From Alphaproteobacteria bacterium (lineage in GTDB: Bacteria > Pseudomonadota > Alphaproteobacteria > Micavibrionales > Micavibrionaceae): a stretch of 41,054 nt of DNA. The notes under the pieces are model-generated. The model was not told the origin of the DNA. It did not search any database and worked only from the letters and a program-made list of their open reading frames with translations. Of this stretch, positions 28,479-31,830 are shown one piece after another. Location: assembly GCA_024275825.1 (NCBI GenBank), contig JAJRYK010000049.1:1-41054 (forward strand). The letters run 5' to 3'. Position 1 is the stretch's first letter; each line of letters opens with the position of its first letter. A program made the position numbers and the translations under genes.

Positions 28479-30392
28479 TTATTGTTTGCCCTGATCCATC
28501 CACCAGCTTTCCAGCACTATGCCATAGATTGGCGTGGCGCTAGGGCGGTTTATGGGGTGCCAATATGATACGTAATCCTCGCCGCTATAGTAAAGCGGGA
28601 TCATGTATTTTCCGGCCATAAGCTTTTCATCCAGGCGCTGGGTTTGGCGCACTAGCGCTTTGCGGGTCTTGGCCCTCGCTATGCTGGCGGCGAGCGCGTC
28701 GATTTCCGGGTCGCAGATGCCGGGGAAATTCCAGCGGGCGGGCGCATTGGCGGCCTCGCACGTCCAGTAGAGCATTTGCTCGGTGCCGGGGGAGAGCGAG
28801 TTGCTCCAATGATAAAGCGTCATGTCGAAATCGTAATCATTCATCCGTCCGCGATAGGCGGCGCTGTCTAGCACGCGGATGAGGACATTGATCCCCATTT
28901 TCTCCAAGCTGCGTTTAAAATGGAGCGCAATTTTTTCATGCGCGGGGGCATCAAGTAGGATTTCGAACTTGAGCGCCGCGCCGTCCTTCACGCGTTTGCC
29001 GTTTTCAACGCTCCAGCCTGCGGCTTTGAGCAGAGCGTCCGCGTCGCGCATTTTCTGGCGGGTGGTTTGCGGAGCCATCTGAATTGCTTCGTATGGCGCG
29101 GCAAGTTCGGAGTTGGGGAAATAGCTGTTGATGCGGCGATATTGCCCGTGGAACAAATTCTTATTCGCCCAGTCGAAATCAAACAGAAAATCAAAAGCGC
29201 GCCGCACGCGGATATCATCAAAGGGCGCGCGGCGGGTGTTGAAGATAAAGCCGCGCGCTTTTTCGGGGCGGCTATGCTTGATGTTTTCCTTTACCGCGCG
29301 GCCGTCATTAAGCGCTGGGAAGTCATAAGCGCTCGCCCATTTGCCCGCATCAAATTCACGGCGCAGATCAATATCACCGGACTTAAACGCCTCAAACGCT
29401 ACGCCGTCATCGCGGTAATAATCGTACGTCACACGATCGAAATTATAGAGACCTTTGTTGGGGAGGAGATCCGCGGCCCAATAATCCGCCACGCGTTCAT
29501 AGGTAATGCGGCGGCCGGGATCAATTTTCGCGATACGGTACGGACCGTTTAGAATTGGCGGGGAAAGCGTTGTAGAGTCAAAGCTGCGGCCCTCCCAATA
29601 TGTTTTGGACAGAACGGGCATCATCGCCAAAATCATCACCGTTTCCTGATCAAAGCCCGGACCAAGCGCAAAATGTACGGTGAGCGGGGCGGTTTTCTCG
29701 GCGTTGCTGACCAGCTTGTAAATGCGGCGCATATTCGGGCGGCCACTGGTTTTTAAAGTCTCGAACGAAAACAGCACATCATCGGCGGTGATGGGCGATC
29801 CGTCATGAAAGCGTGCCTTGGGGTTGATGTGAAACGTAATGGCGGAGCGATCATCGGCCACCTCCACGCGCTGCGCAATCAGCGGATACATCGTAAAAGG
29901 CTCGTCCCAAACCCGCGCCATCAGGCGGTCATAAACCAGATTAAGCCCCTGCGCCGCCTTGCCCTTAATGGCATAGGGATTAACCGTATCAAACGTACCA
30001 ATCGCGCCATGAGTAATCGCCCCGCCCTTCGGCGCATCGGGATTGACGTAGGATAAATGGGTATCGGCAGCGGTGTATTTAGGCGCGCCGTGCATGGCTA
30101 AGCCGTATGGGGTGTCGGCGTGGGCTTGAGGGGTGAGAAGGAAGAGGTTCACGCAAAGGGCGCAAAGGAAGGTGCGCAAAGGGCGCGAAAGAGTTTGAGC
30201 TGAAATATAATTAAGTAATTGGCTAATTAAATTTTTAGAAGAGATGAAGCTTTTATAAATCTTTTTTTCTTTTTTTCTTTGCGTTTCTTTGCGTAAAAGC
30301 TTTGCGGTCTTTGCGTGAACCTGTTTAGGCTCTAAAAAAAGGTTCACGCAAAGGAAGGTGCGCAAAGGGCGCGAAGGGTTTTTACTATTCAT
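28479..30392 (-). CDS. YejA-like ABC transporter solute-binding protein (family 5)
   Basis: A periplasmic binding protein of the oligopeptide/microcin C (SBP_bac_5) family. The mature part begins near DTPYGLAMHGAPKYTAADTH and continues YVNPDAPKGG, the YejA-type opening, with later family segments ITFHINPKARFHDGSPITAD and FNTRRAPFDDIRVRRAFDFL. The first 90 residues are unusual. They contain two copies of an SRPLRTFLC...VNLFL peptide encoded by a CTTTGCG repeat, and the second (RTFLCALCVNLFLLTPQAHA) looks like the functional signal peptide. No ATG, GTG or TTG lies just before that copy, so the ATG at 30392, overlapping the GxxExxY stop as ATGA, is the visible start. No permease or ATPase genes adjoin. 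Confidence 0.85.
   Translation of the reverse strand: MNSKNPSRPLRTFLCVNLFLEPKQVHAKTAKLLRKETQRKKEKKIYKSFISSKNLISQLLNYISAQTLSRPLRTFLCALCVNLFLLTPQAHADTPYGLAMHGAPKYTAADTHLSYVNPDAPKGGAITHGAIGTFDTVNPYAIKGKAAQGLNLVYDRLMARVWDEPFTMYPLIAQRVEVADDRSAITFHINPKARFHDGSPITADDVLFSFETLKTSGRPNMRRIYKLVSNAEKTAPLTVHFALGPGFDQETVMILAMMPVLSKTYWEGRSFDSTTLSPPILNGPYRIAKIDPGRRITYERVADYWAADLLPNKGLYNFDRVTYDYYRDDGVAFEAFKSGDIDLRREFDAGKWASAYDFPALNDGRAVKENIKHSRPEKARGFIFNTRRAPFDDIRVRRAFDFLFDFDWANKNLFHGQYRRINSYFPNSELAAPYEAIQMAPQTTRQKMRDADALLKAAGWSVENGKRVKDGAALKFEILLDAPAHEKIALHFKRSLEKMGINVLIRVLDSAAYRGRMNDYDFDMTLYHWSNSLSPGTEQMLYWTCEAANAPARWNFPGICDPEIDALAASIARAKTRKALVRQTQRLDEKLMAGKYMIPLYYSGEDYVSYWHPINRPSATPIYGIVLESWWMDQGKQ
30145..30192. 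repeat. CTTTGCG repeat, copy A (encodes the signal peptide)
   Basis: AGGTTCACGCAAAGGGCGCA, then AAGGAAGGTGCGCAAAGGGC and GCGAAAGAG. It matches copy B at 30340-30378 except for a nine-base in-frame addition. Read on the minus strand it encodes SRPLRTFLCALCVNLF inside the solute-binding protein. Confidence 0.8.
30301..30378. repeat. CTTTGCG repeat, copies C and B, forming an inverted pair
   Basis: CTTTGCGTGAACCT (30309-30322) and AGGTTCACGCAAAG (30340-30353) are perfect 14-bp inverted arms with a 17-base loop. Copy B continues to 30378 and covers the first codons of the solute-binding protein frame. Confidence 0.8.
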
Positions 30393-30781
30393 AGGGATTC
30401 CCCTTCCTTGCCATTGACGAAACGGTGTATTCCATTTTTAACGTAAGTTTCACCAAAATTTATTAAGAGTGCTAGGGGTTTTTGAGACATTTTTAGATAT
30501 GTCAGTGTTTGTGCTTTGTGGACAGGTAGTAACTTCTCGACGGATTTAATTTCTATGATTATCTTATCGTCAATAATTAAATCTGCTTTGAAGCCAGTTT
30601 TAATATTTAAACTGTCATATCGGACAGGAATAACCACTTCGCTTTCATGAGTAATGTTGGTTTTTTTAAGCTCATGTATAAAGCATGCGTGATAAACACT
30701 TTCGAGTAATCCGGGGCCAAGTTCCTTGTGGATTTTGATGGCTAATCCGATGACAATTTGCGAAAGTTTTTTATTATGCAT
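30389..30781 (-). CDS. GxxExxY protein (PD-(D/E)XK nuclease-like)
   Basis: A 130-residue protein with the name-giving motif GLLESVY (Gly24, Glu27, Tyr30) after a short helix (VIGLAIKIHKELGPG). A nuclease-like core follows: KADLIIDDKIIIEIKSVEKL, with Asp67, Glu77 and Lys79 fitting D...E-x-K of the PD-(D/E)XK superfamily, then a Gln-Thr-Leu-x-Tyr helix (Gln91). The biological role of the family is not established to my knowledge. The gene is more AT-rich than its flanks and is bracketed by CTTTGCG repeats on both sides (30145-30378 and 30781-30828). Its stop overlaps the ATG of the solute-binding protein. The context suggests a small inserted unit. Confidence 0.9.
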   Translation of the reverse strand: MHNKKLSQIVIGLAIKIHKELGPGLLESVYHACFIHELKKTNITHESEVVIPVRYDSLNIKTGFKADLIIDDKIIIEIKSVEKLLPVHKAQTLTYLKMSQKPLALLINFGETYVKNGIHRFVNGKEGESL

Positions 30782-30828
30782 CTTTGCGGCCTTTGCGGTT
30801 TACCTTTGCGTTCTTTGCGTGAACTCCT
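30781..30828. repeat. CTTTGCG repeat, copy D
   Basis: TCTTTGCGGCCTTTGCGGTT, TACCTTTGCG, TTCTTTGCGTGAACTCC lies between the adenosine kinase stop and the GxxExxY start, in the same orientation as copy C. On the minus strand it is the immediate upstream region of the GxxExxY gene. Confidence 0.75.
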
Positions 30829-31830
30829 TTAAGCCGCATCCTTCAATAATACTGCCAGCTCTATTTCTGGTCTTGGGCCTATGTGGCTGATGACTTCGGC
30901 GGCGGCTAGGGCGCCTAGTTTTCCGCATTCGGCCATGCTTTTGCCTTCGGTGAAGCCGTAGAGGAAACCGGCGGCGAATTGGTCGCCGGCGCCGGTGGTG
31001 TCTACGACTTTGTCGACGGGCTGGGCGGTGATTTTGGTGGTTTGGCCGTCTTTGATAATGACAGCGCCGTTTGGCCCGCTTGTAATGGCGGCGATTTCTA
31101 CGTGCTCGCCAATCGCGCTTACCGCATCGTCGAGATTTTCCTGCATGAACAGGGATTTAATCTCGTCTTCATTGGCAAACAGGATGTCGATATGGTTTTG
31201 CACGAGGTTGATAAAATCGCTGCGGTGACGGTCGACGCAAAACGGGTCGGACAAGGTGAGCGCAACGCGGTGTCCGGCTTCGTGCGCATATTCGGCGGCG
31301 CGGATGAAGGCTTGTTTGGCTTGCTCGCGGTCGAAGAGGTAGCCTTCCAGATATGTGACCTGCGCGGAGGCGATGAGGCCTTGGTCGACATCTTCGGCAG
31401 TGAGCTCGACGCTTGCGCCCAGAAAAGTGTTCATTGTGCGCTGGGCATCTGGCGTGATGAGAATCATGCAGCGGCCGGTGGCAGCGCCGATCACGAGGGG
31501 CTGGGTTGTGAATTCGAGGCCTTGTGCGCGGATATCGTGCTGGAAAATCTCGCCGAGTTGGTCTTGCGCGATCTTGCCGATGAAGCCGCCGGTGCCACCG
31601 AAGGAGGCGAAGCCGGCCATGGTGTTTGCTGCGGAGCCGCCGGAGGTTTCCACGCCGGGGCCCATTTTGCTGTAAAGCTCCATCGCGCGCGCCTCGTCGA
31701 TGAGGGTCATCGCGCCCTTTTCCATGCCGTTTGATTCGTGCTGAGCAGCGATGAAGTCGTCAGTGGTGTGGGCAATAACATCGACAAGAGCGTTTCCGAC
31801 GGCGACAACGCCATATTTAGGTGAGGACAT
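30829..31830 (-). CDS. PfkB-family sugar/adenosine kinase
   Basis: A 333-residue ribokinase-fold enzyme. The N-terminal VVAVGNALVDVIA and SGGSAANTMAGFASFGGTGG are the substrate-binding segments. The C-terminal DTTGAGDQFAAGFLYG carries the catalytic Asp283 and the anion hole. Sequence features (GNALVD, ETSGGSAANT) fit the adenosine kinase branch used for purine salvage (adenosine to AMP), but other nucleoside or sugar substrates are possible. The start at 31830 is close to the divergent TetR gene. Confidence 0.9.
   Translation of the reverse strand: MSSPKYGVVAVGNALVDVIAHTTDDFIAAQHESNGMEKGAMTLIDEARAMELYSKMGPGVETSGGSAANTMAGFASFGGTGGFIGKIAQDQLGEIFQHDIRAQGLEFTTQPLVIGAATGRCMILITPDAQRTMNTFLGASVELTAEDVDQGLIASAQVTYLEGYLFDREQAKQAFIRAAEYAHEAGHRVALTLSDPFCVDRHRSDFINLVQNHIDILFANEDEIKSLFMQENLDDAVSAIGEHVEIAAITSGPNGAVIIKDGQTTKITAQPVDKVVDTTGAGDQFAAGFLYGFTEGKSMAECGKLGALAAAEVISHIGPRPEIELAVLLKDAA

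Follow-up and report, generated by a model that had tools for sequence, protein, structure and literature searches.

The stretch of DNA analyzed here (the window) is positions 1-41,054 of contig JAJRYK010000049.1 of assembly GCA_024275825.1, from a member of the Micavibrionaceae (Alphaproteobacteria). In the junction between a pfkB-family sugar kinase gene and a gene for a substrate-binding protein it carries two units with inverted arms that are built of short repeated words (Table 1). One of these, the complete element, encloses a GxxExxY gene, and the other has an A+T-rich interior and no gene. The GxxExxY protein is 130 amino acids long and scores 138.5 bits against TIGR04256 (cut-off 35) and 135.3 bits against PF13366 (cut-off 22). 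An earlier note on this DNA, made from the letters alone, had described an AT-rich gene with a PD-(D/E)XK-like D...E-x-K core that is bracketed by four CTTTGCG-type copies, one upstream and three downstream. Both descriptions were accurate; the G+C content of the gene is 0.356 compared with 0.513 for the window, and the copies lie as described.

Table 1. Features of the two units and of the host genes on either side of them
Feature	Position (bp)	Strand	Basis
Complete element (arm, GxxExxY gene, arm)	30341..30824	-	Inverted arms around the gene
GxxExxY gene, predicted Cas4/RecB-like PD-(D/E)XK nuclease	30389..30781	-	TIGR04256, PF13366, residues, predicted fold
Arm upstream of the GxxExxY gene (gene strand), four CGCAAAG words	30782..30824		Word positions
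Arm downstream of the GxxExxY gene, inverted partner	30341..30376		Word positions, inverted repeats
Gene-less second unit, same kind of arms, A+T-rich interior	30146..30321		Inverted repeat I1, word positions
Outer arm of the gene-less unit	30146..30190		92% identity over 36 nt with the complete element's downstream arm (repeat D4)
Inner arm of the gene-less unit	30277..30321		Word positions
Hairpin from the facing tips of the two units (inverted pair of the earlier note, I3)	30309..30353		Inverted repeat and folding
pfkB-family sugar kinase (first flanking host gene)	30829..31830	-	PF00294; stop codon ~5 bp from the element
SBP_bac_5 substrate-binding protein open reading frame, host gene on the other side	28479..30392	-	PF00496; open frame crosses the gene-less unit

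The 12-mer CTTTGCGTGAAC is present in four exact copies, at 30147-30158(-), 30309-30320(+), 30342-30353(-) and 30813-30824(+); with up to one mismatch allowed the window has four matches against 0.22 expected, and none of 100 shuffles reaches four. The bare 7-mer CTTTGCG is not enriched over the window as a whole, where 17 copies compare with 12.8 expected and 16 of 100 shuffles have at least as many, but 13 of the 17 fall inside 30152-30819. Each 12-mer is the tip of a longer arm of several words, which are mostly 8-9 bp apart. The upstream arm reads TTCACGCAAAG-AACGCAAAG-GTAAACCGCAAAG-GCCGCAAAG on the gene strand, and the downstream arm matches it, imperfectly, in inverted orientation. The earlier picture of one unit with single short repeats must thus be replaced by one of two units with multi-word arms. 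The 14-bp inverted pair that the same note had seen is present (between its copies B and C), but it is 18 nt long, 94% complementary and formed where the tips of the two units face each other; the 45-nt stretch at these tips has a predicted single-stranded DNA fold of -16.3 kcal/mol (z -8.35). A search of positions 29900-31000 against Rfam found no family at gathering score and returned three microRNA-type matches with E values of 0.2 to 0.88.

In alignments of 10 and of 50 GxxExxY proteins D67, E77, K79 and Q91 are invariant, and Y95, the last residue of a Q91-x3-Y95 motif, is present in at least 90% of rows. The AlphaFold model of the window protein has a mean predicted local distance difference test score (pLDDT) of 91.7, and its best fold match is 4ic1, SSO0001, which we take to be a Cas4 (Foldseek E 1.3e-3, probability 1.00; Z 9.4, root-mean-square deviation 3.4 over 100 residues). 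LHK-Exo and λ exonuclease come next in the Foldseek list; in a second fold comparison the Z scores after 4ic1 are 8.6 for 3ijm and 8.2 for the type IIG enzyme 3s1s, and those of the Cas4 4r5q (6.5) and of Holliday-junction resolvases (~6) are of a size that the program describes as common. Profile matches are weak (PADLOC Cas4 at E 0.006 to 0.012, the CRISPR-associated PHROG 1706 at E 8.7e-6), and a sequence search of solved structures gave no convincing match (best E 0.34). Cas4 proteins have four conserved cysteines for an iron-sulfur cluster; in the 50-row alignment a single column has Cys in at least half of the rows (34 of 50). The GxxExxY protein is thus like Cas4, RecB and λ exonuclease in its predicted fold, its D...ExK...QxxxY residues and its weak Cas4 profile matches, and differs from them in being a stand-alone domain of ~125 amino acids with no conserved set of iron-sulfur cysteines. 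The conserved residues and the model fit a Cas4/RecB-like (QxxxY) PD-(D/E)XK nuclease that lacks these cysteines.

Word arms at other GxxExxY loci

The arms were compared in a set of 114 GxxExxY loci, which consists of the best 80 loci of a scan of GTDB genomes, 29 loci from the window's own genome, its relatives and its class, and five plasmid loci. Partial or weak matches (L021, L115-L120, L125-L128 and L130), the viral locus L103 and the plasmid matches H5 and H7 were left out, and eight of the 114 retained loci have a stop inside the matched range. When at least two C[AG]CnnAG words within 200 bp were required in each arm, in inverted order, 81 of the 114 loci passed, compared with none of 99 displaced positions and none of 17 pfkB loci; the clustering of repeats at GxxExxY genes that had been proposed as a check on the earlier note is therefore seen at most of them. 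A second test, which does not name a word, aligned each upstream flank with the reverse complement of its own downstream flank at 107 loci (seven of the 114 were dropped for a flank shorter than 150 bp). Scores higher than those of 95% of cross-locus pairs were reached at 75 of them, and at seven of 99 displaced positions and three of 17 pfkB loci. Chance or base composition as the source of the repeats is ruled out by the controls of the word test and by the shuffles of CTTTGCGTGAAC.

The words themselves are not the same from locus to locus. Other GxxExxY flanks in the own genome and its relatives have inverted runs of CACAGAG, CACAAAG, CACTAAG, CGCAGAT or CACGAAG, so a single fixed CTTTGCG repeat is ruled out as a signature of the family. 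Within a locus the two variable letters of the word agree between the arms in 58 of 81 cases (shuffled mean 19.2, maximum 31 in 2000 shuffles). Because the words differ by locus and the arms of one locus agree, it appears that the architecture is fixed and that the word is private to each element. The proposal of a nuclease gene and its own palindromic repeats as a mobile unit thus gains support and withstood both of the refuting tests that the earlier note had set, whereas CTTTGCG as its general repeat does not gain any. Among 330 word spacings of 8-14 bp, 130 are 8 bp and 129 are 9 bp; a strict lag test for a period was passed at lag 8 or 9 by 12 of 224 arms (and at any lag by three of 219 controls), few because the letters between the words vary.

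A protein tree was made from the 74 loci whose gene is free of stops and whose arms each have two words or more. A phylum can be named for 49 of them, and they fall into 14 phylum-level groups in all. The class of the word (CAC or CGC) changes 16 times on this tree, compared with a shuffled mean of 24.3 (none of 300 shuffles is as low), and the whole 7-mer changes 41 times, compared with 48.7 (one of 300 as low); the word class follows the GxxExxY protein tree more closely than shuffled labels do.

Gene-less hairpins, genomic positions and exchange at one site

The own genome has five GxxExxY genes at different places, and a two-word pattern finds 175 matches in it, compared with 42 for a reversed control. 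Twenty-four sites, partly chosen by the CTTTGCGTGAAC search and hence not a fair census, were read by eye; 19 have two facing arms and five have one, and the words of all five resident elements are present among them. Hairpins nested inside those of another word were found at L345 (C16:17700-19700) and L002 (C14:43750-46761), and hairpins placed in tandem at L348 and also at L018. Some CACTAAG and CGCAGAT hairpins (L338, L339, L342 and L346) enclose a G+C-richer palindrome of the type CATCCCGAGCGAAGCCGAGGGAT. A three-word pattern has matches in 83 of 289 genomes of the class, and most of those listed in G+C-rich genomes look like coding triplets; it was rejected as a genome-wide marker for this reason, and real hairpins were judged by eye among the listed and fetched sites.

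Mobility might reside in the hairpins with word arms themselves and depend on an unrelated enzyme, with the GxxExxY gene a passenger that was captured between two arms. Gene-less hairpins are indeed common, and two genomes, G111 (5.7 Mb; 18 forward and 18 reverse three-word matches, no control match) and G204 (two and two), have hairpins and give no PF13366 match at E values up to 1. Nor is there a clear tendency for hairpins to have the word of a nearby GxxExxY gene (four of 15 loci, which is not significant; 548 of 5000 shuffles). On the other hand, one protein family recurs between such arms in the 14 phylum-level groups, the word class tracks its tree, and another small family, TIGR02436 (see below), has arms of another period and word type. 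We regard a passenger role as unlikely. As to the sites in G111, six were fetched (L181-L186), and L181-L183 and probably L184 read as hairpins with CACGGAG-type words.

GxxExxY genes are patchily distributed, being present in six of 19 genomes of the relatives sample and in 18 of 289 of the class sample (the own genome is counted in both). The orientation of their neighbors, taken as the longest open reading frames on either side, could be called at 100 loci (13 of the 114 had less than 500 bp on a side, and one had no neighbor call): both run in the direction of the GxxExxY gene at 64, they are mixed at 27 and both are opposite at nine. Positions recognized by eye are sdhD-sdhA, coxB-coxA, pdhA and its partner, atpG-atpD and the start of carB, and annotated ones are fabD-fabG, radA with a gene for an FAD-dependent protein, and ade with that for mannose-1-phosphate guanylyltransferase. 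The position between sdhD-like and sdhA-like genes is shared by two genera. Five elements (L010, L014, L019, L112 and L121), each in a different genome of the class, lie by eye just upstream of a carB-like start, and their words differ; shared ancestry or a hot spot may account for this position. The window protein has no match in 50,697 phage records (tblastn) and matches seven of 72,556 plasmid records, five of which are larger than 400 kb; one GxxExxY locus (L103) came from viral contigs. Spread by phages or plasmids is unsupported by these record searches.

Gene junctions that lack a unit, which the earlier note had suggested looking for, occur among the 18 relatives. By eye, pfkB is followed directly by the substrate-binding protein gene with its own signal peptide, and with no element, in eight (L164 and L172-L178), and by other DNA in another eight (L162, L163, L165 and L167-L171); the junction is unreadable in two (L166 and L179). 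In a second genus, G032 is without either hairpin element of a G165 locus; the matched stretches of the two genomes are 74-83% identical, and G165 has 57 matches to one 3.3-kb query.

The strongest evidence for an exchange of elements in place comes from one site in Dolichospermum-group genomes, which was compared in 16 genomes of the genus of L072 (Dolichospermum circinale). Three have an element of type A (CGCAGAG words), five of type B (CGCAAAG) and three of type C (inverted, with CGCAAAG-like words); one has a gene-less hairpin with B-like flanks, the flanks are apart in three, and one has no flank match. The GxxExxY proteins at the site are 61-76% identical between types and 83-99% within them. 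The flanks of G332 (type A), G360 (type B) and G355 and G356 (type C) are 95.0-96.9% identical and group together with a FastTree support of 1.000. Sequence that tracks the element type ends ~25 bp to the left and ~10 bp to the right of the arms; between G332 and G355/G356 identity is 86-87% in the left 100-column window that touches the element and 92-100% in every other flank window. Replacement by homologous recombination would be expected to import longer flanks than these. The ratio of nonsynonymous to synonymous change (dN/dS) of the gene is 0.07-0.32 in nine pairs (the tenth pair is saturated), and the protein is under purifying selection. In G361 (L321 and L322) the two flanks of the site lie ~15 kb apart on one contig in opposite orientation, likely at a rearrangement breakpoint; in G362 and G364 (L323-L326) they are on different contigs, for which the assembly may be the cause.

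An ordinary, non-mobile host gene with terminator- or regulator-like repeats, which is swapped and lost through homologous recombination between strains, could also give rise to presence and absence at such sites. The strong purifying selection agrees with this, as do the shared positions between sdhD-like and sdhA-like genes in two genera and upstream of the carB-like start in five genomes. The patchy presence in the class and among the relatives does not, and neither do the five own-genome copies at different places, the nested hairpins, and the three element types, one of them inverted, within one tight flank clade with divergent tracts that end so close to the arms. Such a host gene seems to us very improbable.

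Candidate mobility, its rivals and known systems

We favor, with moderate confidence, the reading that this is a compact selfish element with a single gene, in which a nuclease gene lies within inverted word arms and is probably moved or swapped by its nuclease together with host repair. This reading builds on what can be seen in the sequences: the arms, the match of the word within an element, the presence and absence at gene junctions, the gene-less, nested and tandem derivatives, the exchange in one gap and the purifying selection. The recurrence in many distantly related bacteria, together with different copies in one gap, suggests a kind of selfish DNA that is widespread and, it seems, undescribed. 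The nuclease would cut at or near hairpins that arms like its own form, whether these belong to a resident element or are leftovers, and host repair would then copy or exchange the interval between the arms, so that elements and gene-less hairpins multiply and swap in place. Units without a gene of their own, such as the second unit of the window, could be moved in trans or could be deletion products. Slippage in the runs of words and copying between the arms might keep the two arms alike.

If the arms pair in the transcript instead, the unit could be an intervening-sequence-like RNA element, which RNase III removes so that insertion into an operon is harmless, as for the S23 elements of 23S rRNA. 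The excess of elements between genes of their own direction fits this. The Coxiella S23 element, whose open reading frame encodes a four-helix bundle, has a 28-bp terminal stem and heptamer repeats and is cut out of 23S rRNA by RNase III (PMC4990558). GxxExxY elements resemble S23 intervening sequences (TIGR02436) in having a short open reading frame within a terminal inverted repeat, words of short period, and a mostly sense orientation in transcribed regions; they differ in the protein, which is not a four-helix bundle, in their location outside rRNA, and in the spacing of the words, which is mostly 8-9 bp compared with ~7 bp. Genes for TIGR02436 four-helix bundles are present in 34 of the 44 genomes behind the GxxExxY loci. 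Thirty such loci (L256-L285) were fetched, and five with short flanks were dropped. Among the remaining 25 the best inverted partner of an arm is its own in 23, the lag test at 7 is passed by 20 of 50 arms, and GxxExxY-type words, looked for at these loci from GxxExxY-bearing genomes, occur at none. Since the arms of both families are inverted and their words differ, there appear to be two protein families and two word systems with one design. The arms of ~7-bp period at TIGR02436 genes are in line with an RNA element. The cyanobacterial heptamer repeats known as short tandemly repeated repetitive (STRR) sequences are presumably linked to four-helix-bundle elements as well. Nostoc, too, has small dispersed repeats. 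The mismatches between arms speak against pairing in RNA: read as sense RNA, 89 GxxExxY loci have 149 G-U and 151 A-C mismatches, and this absence of a G-U excess leaves selection on a stem at the RNA level unsupported. The same test on TIGR02436 leaned the other way (20 against 40). Since RNA pairing is given no support as the force that keeps the arms alike, the balance leans towards DNA; the inverted occupant (type C) at the Dolichospermum-group site is a further point against an RNA element, which we think quite improbable.

Several observations weigh against the selfish-element reading, among them the two genomes with hairpins and no recognizable gene and the failure of nearby hairpins to share a gene's word. 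By the word test 33 of the 114 GxxExxY loci lack two words in both arms (some of these, for example L123, L124 and L205, have arms of other words by eye), and 32 of 107 fail the arm alignment. The linkage of word and tree may come from the relatedness of the hosts, and recombination of the ordinary kind between related strains could explain the swaps. The reading also has to call on host repair, as strand joining is beyond a nuclease by itself. The comparisons yielded neither a fresh insertion nor a resolved target-site duplication, whether between G165 and G032, which are too diverged, or at the Dolichospermum-group sites. All 15 dispersed arm sites fetched from G332 lack a facing partner arm, and these solitary arms lower our confidence slightly. 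One of them, L354, is an old site with remnants of differing length in all 11 genomes compared; an arm there has three words in G332 but one in G360 and G356, a difference that slippage in a short tandem run would be expected to produce. Since every genome carries a remnant there, the site records decay and changes of word number, not insertion, and the differing lengths suggest that deletion and change of word number are common.

A bolder reading, which at present we would sooner doubt than accept, is that these elements are the first members of a new class of minimal selfish DNA. A lone Cas4-like nuclease would replicate and swap in place, along with its short-period word arms, through host repair, and the word would co-evolve with the nuclease; the S23-type elements, with words of 7 bp, would then form an independent second branch of this design.

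Among known systems, the earlier note had likened the locus to the arrangement of repetitive extragenic palindromic (REP) sequences and REP-associated tyrosine transposases (RAYTs), and in layout this comparison is apt: a small nuclease-type gene is bracketed by its own palindromic repeats, here at the 81 loci that pass the word test, and gene-less palindromes are dispersed in the genome. It fails for the enzyme class and the tag. REP/RAYT systems have an HUH tyrosine transposase (TnpA-REP), whereas GxxExxY is of the PD-(D/E)XK (QxxxY) type. No HUH transposase was found: NCBIfam and Pfam return no family but TIGR04256 and PF13366, the matches in PADLOC and PHROGs are weak and of Cas4 type, and the predicted fold is restriction-endonuclease-like. 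REP palindromes have a GTAG or CGTC tag beside them (named in the title of PMC3733652); beside 168 GxxExxY arms GTAG was found three times and CGTC not at all, compared with ~5.9 of each expected by chance. The multi-word arms, with a word that changes between loci, are another difference. GxxExxY elements are REP/RAYT-like in layout and are not members of that system, because they have neither an HUH transposase, as far as these searches find, nor the tag.

Miniature inverted-repeat transposable elements (MITEs) are likewise short non-coding units with terminal inverted repeats that are mostly intergenic. Here the full-length partner encodes a nuclease in place of a transposase; the arms of the gene-less units are common to the GxxExxY element, which is the one partner that was searched for. 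Cyanobacterial type II MITEs have no matching insertion sequence (PMC3542288), and neither "nuclease" nor "RAYT" occurs in the accessible parts of a review of prokaryote MITEs (PMC10969869).

Previous descriptions and the host genes of the window

The earlier note knew of no described pairing of repeats with GxxExxY genes, and the open-access literature searched (subscription journals lie outside it) likewise yielded no description. The accessible open-access passages that name GxxExxY make no mention of repeats, CGCAAAG-type strings are absent from the open-access literature searched, and in the parts of it that could be seen CACAGAG-type strings appear only under titles on animal subjects. 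GxxExxY genes are spread over many phyla, and the search turned up no function that has been assigned to them; they can now be given a context as the genes of an apparent mobile unit with cognate inverted arms. The same unit is a possible origin for intergenic palindromes with CACAGAG-, CACGAAG- or CGCAAAG-type words. If the nuclease does drive the swaps, this would be mobility without a transposase, recombinase or reverse transcriptase. Words that differ between loci and yet match within each locus also raise the question of how arms ~400 bp apart change together.

The gene-less unit of the window may have acquired a role in its host. By eye, a TTG at 30179, in an arm of this unit, would give MRTFLCALCVNLFLLTPQAHA ahead of DTPYGLAMHG in the frame of the substrate-binding protein. 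Relatives have the protein's own signal peptide at the place where the window seems to use the arm, and it is possible that the signal peptide of the window's protein is read from the arm, as an exaptation of the unit.

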